From positions 1 through 34,077 of the forward strand of contig NZ_JACDNP010000015.1 in NCBI RefSeq assembly GCF_013839425.1: a DNA stretch of 34,077 nucleotides. The letters are read 5' to 3'. The notes beneath the pieces are model-generated. The model searched no databases and had not been told where the DNA came from. It saw only the letters and a program-made list of their open reading frames with translations. Positions 1,113 through 9,130 of this stretch are shown here, in pieces. Each line of letters opens with the position of its first letter. The first letter of the stretch is position 1. The translations under genes and the position numbers were made by a program. The stretch is from Halorhabdus salina. Its GTDB lineage: Archaea > Halobacteriota > Halobacteria > Halobacteriales > Haloarculaceae.

Positions 1113-2189
1113 TCAGTCCTCCAGGAGTCTCGTGGTGACGTCCGCTAAGACCGCGACCGAGCGGTCGTACTCCGACAGCACGAGGTGTTCGTCGGGCGCG
1201 TGATCCAGATCCGAGTCACCGGGGCCGTAGGTCACCATCTCGGCGTCCCAGGCGTCGGCGTAGATGTTCATGTCGCTGGTCCCGGTTTTCCGAAGGAGAC
1301 GCGGATCCCCGTCCCGTTCGCGGATCGCCGCGCGAAAGGCCCGTGCGACCTCAGTTCGAGGATTCATCATCACCGGCTCGACCCAGTCGTCCCAGTTGAC
1401 TGTTCCGTTCTGGAGGTGGCCCCCAGCCATCTCTCTGATTTCGTCCGTCGTGTACTCCGGGGGGACGCGCAACTGGACGCGCATCGTCGTCTCGACGGAC
1501 AGGCCATCATCGCTAATCCCGCCGTCGATGTCGACCGGCTTGCAGGTCACTCGCTCGAAGACTGGGTGCCACTCGTCTTTGGCGAACTCGCTTTCGACGC
1601 GATTCCACCAGTCGATGGCGTCCTGGATCGCGTTGTTGTCGGGCCGTGAGGAGTGCCCCGATTCGCTCGTGGCGACGTACGTGCCGCCCAGCAAGCCACG
1701 GTAGCCCAGCGTGATCCCGTCCCAGCCGGAGGGTTCGCCGTTGATCACGACATCGGGTTCGTCCTCGCGGTCTTCAACCAGATAGCGACCCCCAGTGGAG
1801 TCGACCTCTTCGCCGACGACGCCGGCGAAACTCGCACCGGTTCGGACTGCAACGACAGCCATCGCTGCCAGTGGCCCCTTCGCGTCGACGCTCCCGCGAC
1901 CCCACAGCACTGTCTCGCCGTCATCGTTTTCTTCCAGCCGCACCGGAATGTCTCCTGGCACCGTGTCGATGTGGGACGTCAGGAGGACACCGTCGTCGGC
2001 CGGTGCGCGGACGTTGCCCACGTCGTCGGTCCAGACCTCACGGTCGTGGCTCTCGAAGAAGGCCGCGAGAGTCTGGGCCGCCTCCTCAACGTTGCCCGAG
2101 ACGGAGGGAGTCTCGACGAGATCGATCAACAACTCACGGGCCGCTTTCGTCGAGACCTGGGCCGTCGGCGCGTCAGTGGCGGCGCTCAT
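1113..2189 (-). CDS. argE: [Amino-group carrier protein]-ornithine hydrolase (ArgE/LysK)
   Basis: M20-family zinc peptidase, 358 residues. In LysW-type pathways this enzyme frees ornithine (or lysine) from the carrier protein. Visible metal and catalytic motifs are SHIDTVPG (about residue 72), GRGSVDAKGP (about 97), GVVGEEVDSTGG (about 124), NGEPSGW, and a late GDSDLDHAPDE segment. The ATG at 2189 overlaps the argD stop by one base (TGATG), indicating translational coupling. Haloarchaea generally make lysine by the diaminopimelate route, so the arginine assignment (ArgE) is preferred to LysK. This rests on family knowledge and operon context. Confidence 0.9.
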   Translation of the reverse strand: MSAATDAPTAQVSTKAARELLIDLVETPSVSGNVEEAAQTLAAFFESHDREVWTDDVGNVRAPADDGVLLTSHIDTVPGDIPVRLEENDDGETVLWGRGSVDAKGPLAAMAVVAVRTGASFAGVVGEEVDSTGGRYLVEDREDEPDVVINGEPSGWDGITLGYRGLLGGTYVATSESGHSSRPDNNAIQDAIDWWNRVESEFAKDEWHPVFERVTCKPVDIDGGISDDGLSVETTMRVQLRVPPEYTTDEIREMAGGHLQNGTVNWDDWVEPVMMNPRTEVARAFRAAIRERDGDPRLLRKTGTSDMNIYADAWDAEMVTYGPGDSDLDHAPDEHLVLSEYDRSVAVLADVTTRLLED

Positions 2190-3316
2190 CAGTCGATCGC
2201 CTCCGACAGCGCCGCTACGGTCGCGTCGGCGTGGGCCTCGTCGATAATCAGCGGCGGCAGCAGCCGTACGACGGTCCGGCCGGCCGGTAATGCCAGCAGC
2301 TGGTGATGCAACGCCAGATCCTTGAGCACTCGATTGGCACCGCGCTTGATCTCGACGCCGATCATCAGCCCCTCGCCGCGGATCTCGCGGGTGCTGTCAC
2401 CGAGCTCATCACGGAGTTGCCCACGAAGGTACTCGCCGACGTCGGCAGCGTGCTGGGGGATCTCTTCCTCGACGAGCGTCGAGATCGTCGTCTCTGCGGC
2501 CGCGGAGACGACCGGCCCGCCGGAGAACGTCGAGGCGTGGCTGCCGTAGTTCTCGGCGATCCAGTCACGACAGAGCGTCGCGCCCATCGGGAAGCCGTTG
2601 GCAAGCCCCTTTGCCGTCGTGAGCATGTCCGGGACGACGCCGCTTTTCTCACAGGCCCACAGGGACCCCGTCCGGCCCATGCCGGTCTGGACCTCGTCGA
2701 AGATCAACGCCGCGCCAGCATTTTCGGTGATCTCACGGGCGGATTCGAGGTATTCGGTCGATGCGGCATGGATCCCGCCCTCGCCCTGGATCGGTTCCAT
2801 GATGACGGCTGCTGTTTCGTCGTCGACAGCCTCGGCGAGCGCCTCGCTGTCGTCGTATGGCACGAACTCCACGTCGCCGATCAGCGGTTCGTACGGTTTC
2901 TTGTATTTGTCCTTCCAGGTGGTCGCCAGCGCGCCCATCGTCCGGCCGTGAAAGCCCTGCATCGTGGCGACGATCTTCGAGTCGCCTGTGGCGCTCCGGG
3001 CGAATTTCAGTGCGGCCTCGTTGGCCTCAGTGCCCGAGTTACACAGCCAGACGTTGTCGATGTCGCCCGGAGCGACGGCCGCGAGCGTATTGTACAGGTC
3101 CGTCCGAGTTTCAACGGGATAGGACGCCTGGACGTAGGTCAGCTCATCAATCTGGCTTTTCGCGGCCGTATCGACGGCCTCGTGGCTGTGCCCCAGCGGG
3201 ACACAGGCGTAACTCGCGCCCATGTCCAGATACTCCGTTCCCGCGTCGTCGTAGACGACGGCGCCGTCACCGCGCTCGATCTGTATCGGTTTCTCCGAGA
3301 ATACGAATCCGCTCAT
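2189..3316 (-). CDS. argD: [Amino-group carrier protein]-glutamate semialdehyde aminotransferase (ArgD/LysJ)
   Basis: PLP-dependent class III aminotransferase, 375 residues. It transfers an amino group from glutamate to the carrier-bound semialdehyde, giving the carrier-bound ornithine derivative. The PLP-binding region shows FDEVQTGMGRTG followed by TTAKGLANGFPMG, whose Lys should form the Schiff base. The ATG at 3316 overlaps the argB stop by four bases (ATGA), a standard coupling arrangement. Length and order match the argB-argD-argE block of other haloarchaea. Substrate (acetylated or carrier-bound) cannot be read from this protein alone; the choice rests on the neighbouring argX. Confidence 0.92.
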   Translation of the reverse strand: MSGFVFSEKPIQIERGDGAVVYDDAGTEYLDMGASYACVPLGHSHEAVDTAAKSQIDELTYVQASYPVETRTDLYNTLAAVAPGDIDNVWLCNSGTEANEAALKFARSATGDSKIVATMQGFHGRTMGALATTWKDKYKKPYEPLIGDVEFVPYDDSEALAEAVDDETAAVIMEPIQGEGGIHAASTEYLESAREITENAGAALIFDEVQTGMGRTGSLWACEKSGVVPDMLTTAKGLANGFPMGATLCRDWIAENYGSHASTFSGGPVVSAAAETTISTLVEEEIPQHAADVGEYLRGQLRDELGDSTREIRGEGLMIGVEIKRGANRVLKDLALHHQLLALPAGRTVVRLLPPLIIDEAHADATVAALSEAID

Positions 3317-4155
3317 GAGTGGTCCTCCGTGTCGATCGCTGTTTGATAGACGTGCGTTCCAGTACCTTCGAGGGCAGCACTGATCGGTTCGTCCGCGTTC
3401 GCGTCAGTGACGACGACCTCGGGTGCACCGCCTTTCAAGGCCTCCTCAGTAGCCATGATTTTCCGCTCCATGAACCCCTCGGCCGCCGCTTCGAGTGACG
3501 TCCAGTCCTCGCTCGTCTCGACTGATTCGATCAGCGTCGCCGGATCGTCGGGATCGGCATAGACGCCTTCGACGTCCGTTAGCAGGACAAGCGTTGCATC
3601 GAGTGCCCCGGCGATGGCCGCCGCCGAGCGGTCGGCGTCGGTGTTGACCGGGATCCACTCCCCGTCATCCTTTCCGGCCATTGGCGGCCCGGCGACCGGC
3701 GTGTATCCATCGTCTAACAACGTATACAGCAACTCGTCGTTAACCTGCTTGATCGACCCCGAATGGTCGCCGCGTTTGATCTTGCGCTTGCCGTCATCGA
3801 GGACCCGCACGGCTGACTTGCGAGGACCAGCCAGAAGCTTGCCGTCAACGCCGTTGAGTCCGGCCGCGTCGACGCCCTGGCTCTGCAGGCCCGCGACCAG
3901 TTGCGTGTTGAGGTGGCCAAAGACCATTTCGAAGACTTCCATCGTCTCCTCGTCGGTGAACCGGCCGACGACACCCGACGGGGTTTCGACGTACTCAGGC
4001 TCGATTCCCATGCGTTCGAGAGTGTCGTCGACCGCGGTCGAGCCGCCGTGAACGACGACGATGTCTTCTCCATCCTCTACGAGTGTGGCTACGTCCGCCA
4101 GGGCACCCTCAGGATCGACCGCGCGTGCGCCGCCGACTTTGACGACGACCGTCAT
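3313..4155 (-). CDS. argB: [Amino-group carrier protein]-glutamate kinase (ArgB/LysZ)
   Basis: Amino acid kinase family protein of 280 residues. It phosphorylates the gamma-carboxyl of the carrier-bound glutamate using ATP. Visible motifs are VKVGGA at the N-terminus, VVHGGSTAVD, the substrate segment NGVDGKLL, and the C-terminal nucleotide region NTDADRSAAAIAGAL followed by FMERKIMA. The start is ATG at 4155, 16 bases downstream of the argC stop. This is the longest gap between arg enzyme genes apart from the argH/argX gap. N-acetylglutamate kinase and LysZ share this fold; the presence of argX favours the carrier-protein substrate. Confidence 0.92.
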   Translation of the reverse strand: MTVVVKVGGARAVDPEGALADVATLVEDGEDIVVVHGGSTAVDDTLERMGIEPEYVETPSGVVGRFTDEETMEVFEMVFGHLNTQLVAGLQSQGVDAAGLNGVDGKLLAGPRKSAVRVLDDGKRKIKRGDHSGSIKQVNDELLYTLLDDGYTPVAGPPMAGKDDGEWIPVNTDADRSAAAIAGALDATLVLLTDVEGVYADPDDPATLIESVETSEDWTSLEAAAEGFMERKIMATEEALKGGAPEVVVTDANADEPISAALEGTGTHVYQTAIDTEDHS

Positions 4156-4171: not shown

Positions 4172-5230
4172 TCATGGCGATCCCACCGGGTGCATGCCCG
4201 CGAAATCCAGTCCGGCCGTCTCCTCTAAGCCGAGCGCGATGTTGGCGGCGTGGACGGCCTGGCCGGCCGACCCTTTCATCATGTTGTCGATGGCCGAGAA
4301 GACCACGACGCGTTTGTTTCCGGGGTCGAGTTCGAACCCAACTTCCGCGAAGTTTGAGCCCGCGACGGCCTTCGGCTCGGGGTAGCGATAGACGCCACCC
4401 CCGCCGGCGACCATGCGGACGAACGACTCCTCCTCGTAGGATCCTCGATAGGCCCCCCAGAGGTCGCCCTTCGAGACCGGTTCTTCGGGGAAGGCATGGA
4501 TCGTCGCGCTCGCACCGCGGATCATCTCCACCGCGTGGACGGTAAAGGAAACCTCGGTGCCGAGGAACTGCTCGATCTCGGCCTCGTGGCGGTGGCCCGT
4601 CGGCGCATAAGGGCGGACGACGCCCGAGCGCTCAGGGTGACTGGAGGCCTCTCCGCCGCCCGCGCCACCCTCGCTGGAGCCGACTTTCACGTCGACGACG
4701 ATCTGCTCGTCGCCGGAGAGGACGTCGTTCTCGAACAACGGCAGCAGGCCCAGGATCGTCGCCGTGGCGTTGCAGCCACCGGAGGCGATCAGGTCCGCCC
4801 CGGCCAGGTTCTCCCGATTGAGTTCCGGCAGGGCGTACTCGGATTTGTCGAGCAACTCTGGGCGCGAATGCCCGTCGTACCACTCGTCGTACTGGGCTTC
4901 CGAATCGAGTCGGAAGTCCGCCGAGAGGTCGACGACGGTGTCGGCGGCGTCCTGAAACGCGTCGATGTGCTCCATCGAGACGCCGTGGGGAGTTGCTGCA
5001 AACAGCACGTCAACCGACTCCAGGTCTTCGGGTGAACTGAACCGAAGATCGAGGTCCCGCAGGTTCGGGTGGACGTGGCCGATCGTCTTGTTTGCCTTCG
5101 AGCGACTGGTCGCCTGGGCGATATCGAAGTCCGGATGGCCGGTGAGCAGGCGCAGGAGTTCGCCGCCGGTGAAGCCGCTTGCGCCCACGACGGAGGCAGT
5201 CAGCGACGCCTCACCTTCGCTCGCGGACAT
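4172..5230 (-). CDS. argC: [Amino-group carrier protein]-glutamyl-phosphate reductase (ArgC/LysY)
   Basis: NADPH-dependent reductase, 352 residues, converting the carrier-bound acyl phosphate to the semialdehyde. The N-terminal Rossmann motif is VVGASGFTGGELLRLL. The catalytic Cys lies in ASGGCNATA, and a later GHRHEAEIEQF supplies the conserved His. A GTG at 5233 could add one residue, but the ATG at 5230 is preferred because it overlaps the argX stop by one base (TGATG), the same junction used between argD and argE. It belongs to the semialdehyde dehydrogenase family and sits between argX and argB as in other haloarchaea. Confidence 0.92.
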   Translation of the reverse strand: MSASEGEASLTASVVGASGFTGGELLRLLTGHPDFDIAQATSRSKANKTIGHVHPNLRDLDLRFSSPEDLESVDVLFAATPHGVSMEHIDAFQDAADTVVDLSADFRLDSEAQYDEWYDGHSRPELLDKSEYALPELNRENLAGADLIASGGCNATATILGLLPLFENDVLSGDEQIVVDVKVGSSEGGAGGGEASSHPERSGVVRPYAPTGHRHEAEIEQFLGTEVSFTVHAVEMIRGASATIHAFPEEPVSKGDLWGAYRGSYEEESFVRMVAGGGGVYRYPEPKAVAGSNFAEVGFELDPGNKRVVVFSAIDNMMKGSAGQAVHAANIALGLEETAGLDFAGMHPVGSP

Positions 5231-6105
5231 CACTCACTCACCCCCGCTTTCGTCTCCAGCCAGTCGACGACCTGGGCGGGGATGTCTGTCTCGACGGCGT
5301 CGTTCAGTGCTTTGAACTCGACAGTGTGATTGACTTCGTGGACTGTGTAGCCGGTCGGATTCCCGTCCTCATCCACTCCTGTTTCCATTAGATCTATTCC
5401 TAAGAGCCCGCCACCGACGGCTTCGCTCGCCGCCGCGACCAGCTCCTCGGCGCGTTCGTCGAGTTCGAAGACGTCGGTTTCGGCCCCTTTCGCGGCGTTG
5501 GTCAGCCAGTGGTCCGAGGAGCGGACCATCGCCGCGATTGGCTCGCCGTCGGTCGCTAGGACGCGAATGTCCCGGCCTGGCTTTTCGACGAACTCCTGGA
5601 CGTAGAAGACCTTGTGCTCGTAGTGGCCAAGCGTCGCCTTGTGTTCGAGGATGGCCTCGGCGGCGTCTCGCGTGTCGATCTTGGCCATCAGCCGGCCCCA
5701 GGATCCAATGACAGGCTTGAGTACACAGGGATAGCCGAAGTCCTCGATGATATCCAGGGCCGTGTCTTTGGTGAATGCGACCTCCGTTTTCGGGGTCGGC
5801 ACGCCGGCCTGTTTCAGCGCGAGGCTGTTGGTCACCTTATCAGCGCAGGTTTCGGCCGTCTCGTGGCTGTTGACGACGGGAATGTCGTAGGCATCGAGGA
5901 ACTCCGTCGCATAGAGACTCCGGCTGGTCGCCAGACACCGATCGAGCACGACGTCGACGCCCTCGAAATCCGCCGGCGGTTCGTCCAGGCTGAAGCGCTG
6001 TTTGCGCACGTCGACTTTCGTCACCTCGTGATCGCGCTCGCGCAACTCCGAGAGGAGCAGCTTCTCGTCCTGGCGGATGCGCGAATACAGCAATCCGACG
6101 TTCAC
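5230..6105 (-). CDS. argX: Glutamate-[amino-group carrier protein] ligase (ArgX/LysX)
   Basis: RimK/ATP-grasp ligase, 291 residues. Such enzymes attach glutamate (ArgX) or aminoadipate (LysX) to the C-terminal Glu of the small carrier LysW/ArgW. Visible ATP-grasp elements are the central CVLKPVIGSWGR, the VQEFV segment, FYV nearby, and the metal-binding HEVNHTVEFK near the C-terminus. The start is set at GTG 6105 because a perfect GGAGGTG ribosome site (6113-6119) lies seven bases upstream. An ATG at 6126 would add RRCGR-type residues and would place the ribosome site inside the gene. The GTG overlaps the stop of the preceding 43-codon ORF by four bases (GTGA). Confidence 0.92.
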   Translation of the reverse strand: MNVGLLYSRIRQDEKLLLSELRERDHEVTKVDVRKQRFSLDEPPADFEGVDVVLDRCLATSRSLYATEFLDAYDIPVVNSHETAETCADKVTNSLALKQAGVPTPKTEVAFTKDTALDIIEDFGYPCVLKPVIGSWGRLMAKIDTRDAAEAILEHKATLGHYEHKVFYVQEFVEKPGRDIRVLATDGEPIAAMVRSSDHWLTNAAKGAETDVFELDERAEELVAAASEAVGGGLLGIDLMETGVDEDGNPTGYTVHEVNHTVEFKALNDAVETDIPAQVVDWLETKAGVSE

Positions 6106-6233
6106 GCGGCCGCACCTCCGGGACATACGGGCGTCGCGGCTGTCGGTGCTGTTCCGCCGGCGGTCGACGGCTGATGTGATACCGTACTCGGTGTCGTGAA
6201 CATGGCGTGGATCGCTGTGGTGATCTCAGACAT
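6102..6233 (-). CDS. 43-residue ORF at the expected lysW/argW position
   Basis: A short ORF that fills the gap between argH and argX. Its ATG (6233) overlaps the argH stop by eight bases and its TGA shares GTGA with the argX start, so it is placed exactly like a translated operon gene. In haloarchaea such as Haloferax this slot holds the 54-residue carrier LysW/ArgW, which has two CxxC zinc motifs and ends in EDWGE. This ORF has a single Cys, no acidic tail, is Thr/Ala/Pro-rich, and uses fewer G/C third positions than its neighbours. It may be a coupling leader, a remnant, or an unrelated small protein. Whether it is translated is unknown. Confidence 0.4.
   Translation of the reverse strand: MSEITTAIHAMFTTPSTVSHQPSTAGGTAPTAATPVCPGGAAA
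6113..6119 (-). promoter_or_regulatory. Strong ribosome binding site of argX
   Basis: GGAGGTG on the minus strand, seven bases before GTG 6105. It is complementary to the conserved 3' end of archaeal 16S rRNA and decides the argX start. It also lies inside the last codons of the 43-codon ORF. Confidence 0.85.
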
Positions 6234-7722
6234 ACGTCTCTACCTCCGCCTGCAGGGTCTGGGCCGCTGCATCGAGGTTCGCTCGACGGTCGGCCAGCGC
6301 GTCGCTGTCTGTGGCGTGTTCGTCGCGGGCAGTTGCGATCTGGTCGGCGACGGCCCCGGGGGCCGGCCCACCGGGAGAGTCGCGACTGGCGACGCTCTCC
6401 GTGGGATCGAGTGCGGCTTCGACCGTCTCTCGGTCGACGTACTCGGTCAGCGGCGCATCGAGTACCTTCCGCGTCGCGGCGTCGAGCGTCTGGAAGTCCG
6501 TTTCCCCGGCGGCTTCGGCCGCGCCGGCAACGACTTCGTGGGCCATCCGGAAGGGAACGCCGGCCATCGCCAGCGCGTCGGCGACGCCCGTCGCGGTCGA
6601 GAAGCCCTCGCCCGCAGCGTCGGCCAAGGCTTTTTCGTTCCACTCGGCGGTCGCGACCGCGCCGGCGGCGACTTCGGTCGCCTCGCTGACCCCGTCGATC
6701 GTCCGCCAGGCGTGCCCGCCGGCTCGCTGGAGGTCGCGGTTGTACGCCCGCGGGAGCCCCTTCAGCGTACTCAACAACCCGTTGAGGCCCGCCGCGGCGT
6801 CGCCAGCGCGGGCGCGGACGAGTTCGAGCGTGTCGGGGTTCTTCTTCTGTGGCATGATCGAGGAGGTCGAAGCGTAGCTGTCGTCGACCTCGATATACCC
6901 CTTGTTCGCGTAGAGGACGACATCCTCTGCGAGCCCCGACAGCGTCGTCGCCAGGCTCGCGAGTGCGGCTGTCGACTCGACGAGGAAGTCCCGCGCCGAG
7001 ACGGCGTCCATCGCGTTGTCCATCGTCCCGTCGAAGCCCAACAGCTCGGCCGTCCGCTCGCGGTCGATCTCGAAAGGCGTGCCCGCGAAGGCGGCCGCCC
7101 CGAGTGGCGACTGGTTCGTACGGGCGTAGGCCGCCACGAGGCGCTCGATCTCACGGGCAATGGCCCGCTCGTAGGAAAGCGCCCAGTGGGCGACCGTCGT
7201 CGGCTGGGCCGGCTGGAGGTGCGTAAATCCCGGCATGATCGTCTCACGCTCGGCCTCGGCGGTCTCGATCAGCGCGCCGCGAGCCTCAAGTGTTGCCTGT
7301 GCTGCATCCAGCAGGTCCTCACGAAGTCGGTAGCGAATACAGGTCGCCACCTCGTCGTTGCGCGAGCGGGCGGTGTGCATCCGGCCGCCGTCGGGGCCGA
7401 CGCGATCGATTACGGCCGTTTCGATGGCCTCGTGGACGTCTTCGCCGTCGGGCAGGGCGTCGTGGCCTGCGTCCTCGATTTGGTCGAGGGCAACCAGGAT
7501 TTCACCGGCGGTCTCCGCCTCGACGATCCCCCGCTCTTCGAGCATGACGACGTGGGCGCGATCGACCGCAAGGTCGGCCGCGAAGATGCGCTCGTCAGCG
7601 GCGAGCGACGAGAGGAACCCCCGGGCGGGGCCGCCGCTGAACCGCTCTCGACGGACGACACCGTCGCTGCTCGTATCGCCGTCGTCGGCTCCGTCACCGT
7701 TCACCGTGGGTTCCTCTGGCAT
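6226..7722 (-). CDS. argH: Argininosuccinate lyase
   Basis: Fumarase/aspartase-superfamily enzyme, 498 residues, splitting argininosuccinate to arginine and fumarate, the last step of the pathway. The superfamily signature appears as SSIMPQKKNPD in the middle of the protein. Upstream are the substrate loop HTARSRNDEVATC near residues 115-130 and FTHLQPAQPTT near 170. The start is ATG at 7722, three bases after the argG stop. The N-terminal 25 or so residues are acidic and low-complexity before the conserved RFSGGPARGF. The gene is co-transcribed after argG, and its stop overlaps the start of the 43-codon ORF. Confidence 0.95.
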   Translation of the reverse strand: MPEEPTVNGDGADDGDTSSDGVVRRERFSGGPARGFLSSLAADERIFAADLAVDRAHVVMLEERGIVEAETAGEILVALDQIEDAGHDALPDGEDVHEAIETAVIDRVGPDGGRMHTARSRNDEVATCIRYRLREDLLDAAQATLEARGALIETAEAERETIMPGFTHLQPAQPTTVAHWALSYERAIAREIERLVAAYARTNQSPLGAAAFAGTPFEIDRERTAELLGFDGTMDNAMDAVSARDFLVESTAALASLATTLSGLAEDVVLYANKGYIEVDDSYASTSSIMPQKKNPDTLELVRARAGDAAAGLNGLLSTLKGLPRAYNRDLQRAGGHAWRTIDGVSEATEVAAGAVATAEWNEKALADAAGEGFSTATGVADALAMAGVPFRMAHEVVAGAAEAAGETDFQTLDAATRKVLDAPLTEYVDRETVEAALDPTESVASRDSPGGPAPGAVADQIATARDEHATDSDALADRRANLDAAAQTLQAEVETYV

Positions 7723-7725
7723 GGC

Positions 7726-8958
7726 TTACTCCTCGTCGTCGGCAAGTGACTCCGTGACGCGGTTGGCCAGGCGCGACTGGAACCCGTGGTACTTTGCGAC
7801 GCCCGTAGCGTCGTCCTGCGTGATACTCCCGGTTACAGCCTCCTCGTTGAACGAGGCCGCCGACTCGCTGTACACCGAGTAGTCGGATTCACGCGAGACG
7901 GCCCGACAGTGGCCGCCTTCGAGTTTGACCGTTACCGTCCCCGTGACGCGGGATTGGGTCTGCTCGATGAATCCTTCGAGGTCTTTCACGAGGGGCGCGT
8001 CGATCAACCCCTCGTAGGCCTTTTCGGACCAGCGCTGATCGATGGAAGTCTTGAACTGGCGTTCTTCCTGGGTGAGGACGAGTCCTTCCAGAGCCTCGTG
8101 GGCCGTCAGCAGCACCGTCGCGGCTGGATGTTCGTAATTCTCGCGGACCTTCAGGCCGAGCATCCGGTCTTCCATCATGTCCGTCCGACCGATCCCGTGC
8201 GCGCCGGCGCGTTCGTTGAGTGCCTCGATGAGTTCGACCGAGCCGAGTGCCTCGCCGTCGACGGCCACAGCGGTGCCGTCCTCGAAGGTAATCTCGACGA
8301 GTTCGGCGTCTTTCCCGGAGGGATTGTCCGTCCAGAGGTAGATATCGTCCTCCGGGATCGTCGCGGGGTCTTCGAGTTCCGAGCCCTCGATCGAGCGACT
8401 CCAGAGGTTCGTGTCGATCGAGTAGCGACCGCCGGCCCCGCCCTCGACGGGCAGGCCCTTCTCCTCGGCGTACTCGTTCTCCCACTCGCGAGTGAGGCCG
8501 AGTTCGCGGATCGGCGCGATCACGTCCATGTCAGTGTCGCGCCAGACGGCCTCGAAGCGCAACTGATCGTTGCCCTTGCCAGTACAGCCGTGGGCGAGGG
8601 CGGTACAGCCCTGCTCGCTGGCGACGTCGGCGATCGCTTTCGCGATGACCGGGCGGGCGAGTGAGGTTCCCAGCGGGTAGCCCTGATAGTCGGCGTTGGC
8701 CTTCACCGCGTCGAGACAGAGGTCGGCGAACGCTTCCGTCGCGTCGACGACGTAGTGCTCGAGTCCGAGTGCCTCAGCGGTCTCTTCGGCCTCGTCGAAC
8801 TCGTAGTCGGGCTGGCCGACATCGACCGTGACGCCGATGACGTCGTCGTAGCCGTATTCTTCTTTGAGTAGCGGGACGCAGACTGTGGTGTCGAGCCCGC
8901 CCGAGAAGGCGAGTGCGACGGTACCGTTTCCGTTCTGTTGTGTCGTGGATTGTGTCAT
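7726..8958 (-). CDS. argG: Argininosuccinate synthase
   Basis: ATP-dependent condensation of citrulline and aspartate to argininosuccinate. It is 410 residues, normal for the family. The PP-loop ATP-binding motif SGGLDTT is near residue 19, and the GCTGKGNDQLRFE segment near residue 125 contains the citrulline/aspartate site. The start is ATG at 8958, followed by a short TQSTTQQNGNG linker. It is the first gene of the operon. Upstream there is a leader with inverted repeats (9052-9130), and a possible TATA element lies near 9165-9175 on the minus strand. Confidence 0.95.
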   Translation of the reverse strand: MTQSTTQQNGNGTVALAFSGGLDTTVCVPLLKEEYGYDDVIGVTVDVGQPDYEFDEAEETAEALGLEHYVVDATEAFADLCLDAVKANADYQGYPLGTSLARPVIAKAIADVASEQGCTALAHGCTGKGNDQLRFEAVWRDTDMDVIAPIRELGLTREWENEYAEEKGLPVEGGAGGRYSIDTNLWSRSIEGSELEDPATIPEDDIYLWTDNPSGKDAELVEITFEDGTAVAVDGEALGSVELIEALNERAGAHGIGRTDMMEDRMLGLKVRENYEHPAATVLLTAHEALEGLVLTQEERQFKTSIDQRWSEKAYEGLIDAPLVKDLEGFIEQTQSRVTGTVTVKLEGGHCRAVSRESDYSVYSESAASFNEEAVTGSITQDDATGVAKYHGFQSRLANRVTESLADDEE

Positions 8959-9051
8959 GTGCGTGACTGTCGGGTGAGAGATGACCGCCCCGGAACCCGA
9001 CGGTGGGCGGCGATGAGAACGTTCGAACGCGTGAAGAGAGTAGTAGTGACG

Positions 9052-9130
9052 GGCCTAACGGCCCCGTCGTCGGCGTCGAAGAAGGGAGACGGACCCACCG
9101 GTCTCGGAACCGTTTGCGTTGGACCGGTGG
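9052..9130 (-). promoter_or_regulatory. Inverted repeats in the argG upstream region
   Basis: A perfect 8-bp inverted repeat, CCACCGGT at 9095-9102 and ACCGGTGG at 9123-9130, encloses a 20-base loop. A second, smaller one (GGGCC/GGCCC with a TAAC loop) lies at 9052-9065. If transcription starts from the TATA-like element near 9165-9175, both fall in the untranslated leader of the arg operon. Regulatory function is inferred only from position. Confidence 0.3.

Follow-up and report, generated by a model that had tools for sequence, protein, structure and literature searches.

Relocation of the arginine carrier gene lysW in Halorhabdus, and a bridging reading frame that probably relays translation from argH to argX

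The gene for the arginine carrier LysW/ArgW has been relocated, and not lost, in Halorhabdus. Comparison with other haloarchaea shows that lysW has gone from its usual slot between argH and argX together with a putative terminator and a promoter-like element, and that the slot now holds a short open reading frame (ORF) overlapping both neighbouring genes. Taken as a whole, it is quite probable that the carrier moved, that a deletion fused two transcription units, and that the ORF in the deletion scar acts as a translation relay.

The window analysed here, a stretch of 34,077 nucleotides from the 2.86 Mb, 99.99% complete genome of Halorhabdus salina, carries the arginine genes on its minus strand. 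The fused operon opens with argG (7726-8958; NF010392, 655.5 bits), which ends 3 nt before argH, the argininosuccinate lyase gene (6226-7722; TIGR00838, 462.9 bits). A 43-codon bridging ORF (6102-6233) follows in the former terminator-promoter-lysW slot. It leads into argX, which encodes the ATP-grasp LysW/ArgW-glutamate ligase (5230-6126; TIGR02144, 284.3 bits) and overlaps argC by 4 nt (4172-5233; TIGR01850, 363.9 bits). The kinase gene argB (3313-4155), whose product acts on carrier-bound glutamate, matched NF010661 at 499.4 bits and the [LysW]-aminoadipate kinase model NF010659 at 273.5 bits, and the aminotransferase gene argD (2189-3316) matched Aminotran_3 and argD/LysJ models. They are followed by argE for the carrier-releasing hydrolase (1113-2189; NF003367, [LysW]-lysine hydrolase, 514.1 bits) and argF for ornithine carbamoyltransferase (217-1110; NF001986, 421.1 bits). 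The first-pass annotation had thus listed the carrier-dependent enzymes correctly: a LysX/ArgX-type ligase, a LysW-type kinase, argC, argD and a [LysW]-lysine-hydrolase-type argE are all present, along with argF, argG and argH. Because the bridging ORF overlaps argH by 8 nt and argX by 4 nt, no junction in the operon exceeds 16 nt when this ORF is included.

The argX ORF opens at ATG 6126; homology to its relatives begins at GTG 6105 (residue 8). Since this is where the homology starts, and since a GGAGGTG ribosome-binding motif read from the sequence (6113-6119, minus strand) precedes it, GTG 6105 is the likelier argX start. The motif lies within the 3' end of the bridging ORF, and a G-rich block resembling it is found at the same place in the seven Halorhabdus species. 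The bridging ORF was also considered as an N-terminal extension of argX and rejected, as its frame is not that of argX, and the latter is already closed a short way upstream in three of the species (G002, G004 and G005).

Directly before the argG start (8960-9015, minus strand) lies a block that hardly varies among the seven Halorhabdus species and can also be recognised in other Haloarculaceae. It contains two interleaved complementary stems, CCGCCC/GGGCGG and GTCGGGT/ACCCGAC, the second of which shows compensated changes in G012 (GCCGGGT/ACCCGGC) and G017 (GTCCGG/CCGGAC). The block is a candidate pseudoknot leader or operator; it had no Rfam match, and its nested fold alone was not more stable than those of shuffles. 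A conserved hairpin-like block, CGACGACCGGGCCGTTAGGCCCG, was also observed upstream of argG in most sampled haloarchaea (about 9045-9075 of the window, minus strand, and loci L202-L231), and might act as a terminator for the gene before it. Four genomes from two genera (G099, G152, G162 and G164) have a second argX-like gene, whose identity to the ArgX of the window is 62-65%.

A LysW family search of the whole H. salina genome returned a single match, on contig 20 (G000:C20:33424-33558; 4.3e-21). The protein is 54 aa long (MSDCPECG...CATCG...EEDWGE) and has two CxxC pairs, the C-terminal EDWGE and profile scores of 77.8 bits against TIGR01206 (cut-off 53.2) and 76.5 against PF21344 (cut-off 27), which place it among the carriers; its NF041070 score is below the domain cut-off (63.4 vs 75). 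The annotation offered relocation of the carrier and a new occupant of its slot as alternatives; both appear to hold, and relocation is shown by this match, with lysW away from the arg operon and argX in all seven Halorhabdus genomes. The surroundings of the relocated gene are partly common to the species: a moaA-like gene lies upstream in four genomes (G000, G001, G004 and G006), six genomes share a downstream membrane-protein gene, and a similar TATA-like segment (CTTGAAGT, CTTCAAGT) is located about 31 nt before its ATG in all seven. Its dN/dS within Halorhabdus is 0.04, indicating strong purifying selection. In Natrinema gari, argW and argX are required for arginine and not for lysine, and ArgW carries the substrate on its C-terminal Glu, E54 (PMC10433800). 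The GSWGR motif of ArgX, which recognises EDWGE in other species (PMC10433800), is kept in the ArgX of the window. Because of its intact motifs, the strong purifying selection, its being the only copy and the retained GSWGR, the relocated LysW is the expected partner of ArgX, and we infer that it feeds ArgX as the carrier in arginine synthesis.

A cysteine-free LysW/ArgW was seen in G014, G023, G033, G037, G047, G053, G137, G138, G150, G165 and G167, and as a second copy in G043 (L232-L243). EDWGE is kept in these proteins and both CxxC pairs are replaced (EDPITG...DSPITG), so that they lack the zinc site typical of the family.

The slot was compared with a control set of 105 other haloarchaeal arg loci with an operonic lysW, in which a few genomes are counted twice via two collections. 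In these loci lysW lies between argH and argX, 152-347 nt away from argH. In a typical gap, argH is followed by a GC-rich hairpin (CCCCGCGAGGGG is one example), and a TATA-like TTTAAGT precedes the lysW ATG by about 33 nt; a TTTAW box occurs 30-48 nt upstream of lysW in 100 of the 105 loci. With this hairpin and this box, the usual arrangement resembles two transcription units, argGH and argWXCBDEF, of which the latter has hardly any leader or none. A TTTAW-type box was found in none of the eight fused argH-argX junctions, i.e. those of the seven Halorhabdus species and of G011, which belongs to another genus of the family. Beyond the missing lysW that had been noted earlier, the deletion thus appears to have removed a promoter and a terminator as well, fusing the two units. 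In many of the operons that contain lysW, this gene and argX do not overlap and are separated by up to about 90 nt; argX therefore evidently can start without coupling, and coupling at that point is not universal.

The translation of the 43-codon ORF is MSEITTAIHAMFTTPSTVSHQPSTAGGTAPTAATPVCPGGAAA*. As the annotation had described, it has neither CxxC pairs nor EDWGE (its C-terminal end is CPGGAAA), it overlaps argH by 8 nt (ATGTCTGA), its ATG being supplied by the final argH codons TAT GTC TGA, and its stop overlaps the argX start in GTGA. Pfam and NCBIfam searches of the ORF gave no family match, LysW/ArgW models TIGR01206 and PF21344 included, and viral contigs contained no match to its first 30 nt. 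A divergent LysW in the slot is not supported, there being no similarity, no EDWGE and a real LysW elsewhere; tblastn found no LysW-like sequence at the junction, which also disposes of a LysW remnant. A coupling leader, as the annotation proposed, is the reading best supported by anatomy and comparison. The position of a short ORF between two arginine genes might bring to mind an arginine-sensing attenuator leader peptide. This is very improbable, since the ORF has no arginine codon in H. salina and 2-4 scattered ones in the other Halorhabdus species, sits in mid-operon, and lies in a region without an Rfam match at E values up to 1.

The same lysW-free bridge was found at the junction in all seven Halorhabdus species, and Halorhabdus amylolytica (L091) is the closest named relative to share this junction; there is no normal lysW at this position in close relatives and the ORF corresponds to no known unrelated protein. 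A sequencing error or a strain-specific loss of lysW is excluded by the agreement of the seven species. In each of them the frame opens at an ATG within ATGTCTGA or ATGTTTGA, in an 8-nt overlap with the argH stop, and closes at a TGA within GTGA or ATGA, in a 4-nt overlap with the argX start. Both overlaps (-8 for argH and the ORF, -4 for the ORF and argX) are thus of the types found in termination-reinitiation pairs (-4, -1 or -8 nt). No two of the argH-argX gaps are equal in length (99, 108, 120, 123, 144, 147 and 156 nt), and each is divisible by 3; an invariant internal ATG splits the gap into two halves that each preserve phase in all seven species. Summed over the species, there are no stop codons in the ORF frame and 8 and 5 in the other two frames.

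Could such a frame be accidental, the deletion having left it open by chance while argX is translated on its own from its ribosome-binding site? We regard this as unlikely, even if several observations agree with it. The start and stop codons follow automatically from what argH and argX encode: an argH ending in ...YV* supplies the ATG (it is also present in 97 of the 105 control loci), an argX start of (A/G)TG-AA supplies the TGA, and for this reason only phase and the absence of stops are informative. GC-rich DNA such as this is often stop-free, and dinucleotide shuffling gave P ~0.55 for an open frame of this length in H. salina and 0.27-0.63 for openness per Halorhabdus species. The GC by codon position differs from the pattern usual in haloarchaeal genes, a separate ribosome-binding motif serves argX, and the pairwise dN/dS of the ORF is 0.37-1.36, mostly below 1, compared with 0.15 for argH and 0.04 for lysW. 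On the other hand, seven lengths in seven species are all in phase and open despite a divergence of ~21-34% at third codon positions of the neighbouring genes, and G011 reached the same arrangement separately. A bridging open frame was present in just 1 of the 105 control loci, as opposed to all seven Halorhabdus species and G011 with their matched overlaps, although the greater length and higher AT content of the control gaps mean that this is not a like-for-like rate. When neutral evolution was simulated along the species tree, the probability of all seven frames being open came to 0.008-0.10, with in-phase indels not counted in; each independent in-phase indel multiplies this value by about 1/3, or by 0.46 with the control distribution, in which multiples of 3 are somewhat enriched (24 of 52 distinct lengths). 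A single open frame would be unremarkable; what appears unlikely is the same in-phase bridge in seven species and again after a separate loss. Selection for translation through the argH-argX gap is accordingly rated as likely on these comparisons, though not proven.

It is improbable that the ORF encodes a small protein with a function of its own, such as a disordered, Thr/Pro-rich polypeptide that partners ArgH or ArgX. An MSE(T) start and the invariant internal Met recur in seven species, an MTT(T/R)-type segment in five, and the majority of the pairwise dN/dS values are below 1. However, the ORF ranges from 36 to 55 codons across Halorhabdus, is weakly conserved, is of low complexity and has no family match, and the short ORFs of G011 and of Halapricum G061 share its architecture only, not its sequence. 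The open frame and its matched ends, then, appear to be under selection, and the peptide itself largely not.

The loss of lysW in G011 is separate from that in Halorhabdus; its gap of 48 nt holds a 19-codon ORF with the same overlaps. In Halapricum, four genomes have one lysW in the operon and another at a distance, whereas G061 has the distant one alone. It is plausible that an extra copy came first and the operonic one was lost later, and Halapricum shows what such an intermediate state may have looked like. G061 has retained the old promoter and the lysW start codon without lysW itself, and contains mini-ORFs of 12 and 11 codons which ATGA joins to each other and to argX. As such a chain arises in 14% of shuffles, it is supportive only. 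In a tree of the 54-residue LysW proteins, the AU p value was 0.44 for the Halorhabdus and Halapricum extra copies as one clade and 0.20-0.24 for two alternatives; the extra copies of the two genera lie in different gene neighbourhoods. Of the two lysW genes of Halapricum (L078-L083), one belongs to the arg operon and the other, at a different site, is preceded by a TTTGATAG-like box.

Our proposed explanation is as follows. In the ancestor of Halorhabdus, a lysW copy at another genomic site would have come to supply the pathway, and a deletion would then have taken out the operonic lysW, the terminator of argGH and the promoter driving lysW-argXCBDEF; removal of the terminator and the promoter would therefore have fused argGH to argXCBDEF. 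After the deletion, some 100-150 nt separate argX from argH, no promoter specific to argX is visible, and argX is now presumably transcribed by read-through from argG-argH. In Haloferax volcanii, where genes often overlap by 4, 1 or 8 nt, efficient termination-reinitiation requires an overlap or a very short distance, and a gap of ~20 nt nearly abolishes coupling (PMC10666635, PMC6728339). Ribosomes finishing argH would most likely reinitiate on the bridging ORF, read its codons, 36-55 in number according to species, and then start again at argX, so that translation would continue without a break along the operon. Shielding of the nascent RNA by ribosomes may, speculatively, be an added benefit. 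We infer both the translation of the ORF and the coupling, and a translation relay is the simplest reading of the slot. A wider proposition, which has in our estimate about an even chance of being correct, is that archaeal operon scars left by gene and promoter loss repeatedly become short ORFs selected only for phase and end overlaps, keeping ribosomes moving between the flanking genes, with three separate cases in the haloarchaeal arg operon.

These findings explain an apparent hole in the pathway, since the carrier is present at another site of the genome, and point to the fusion of a split transcription unit. They provide a natural experiment on why archaeal operons keep their genes overlapping. 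A conserved frame with a drifting peptide suggests that translation through the spacer matters, not the product, and serves as a warning that a short ORF with a conserved frame need not be a small protein.

Short translated leader or spacer ORFs can be coupled to a downstream gene. The bridging ORF is likewise short, and we propose that its translation hands ribosomes on to the gene that follows. It differs from them in being intra-operonic with overlaps at both ends, and similar arrangements occur in three lineages, each after losing the same gene.

The operon has the same gene set (argG, argH, argX, argC, argB, argD, argE and argF) and the same carrier motifs as the ArgW(LysW)-dependent arg systems of Natrinema gari and Haloferax volcanii (PMC10433800, PMC8305020). 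Unlike in those species, argW of Halorhabdus lies outside the operon, and the internal terminator and promoter are missing, with a bridging ORF in their place.

Termination-reinitiation at overlaps of -4, -1 and -8 nt has been described in E. coli and in Haloferax volcanii, which belongs to the same organism group as Halorhabdus (Huber et al. 2019, 2023), and the same overlap types are present at both ends of the bridging ORF. The overlaps studied by Huber et al. join two functional genes, whereas both Halorhabdus overlaps belong to a short ORF of drifting sequence, which, unlike those gene pairs, seems to exist for carrying coupling across a deletion scar.
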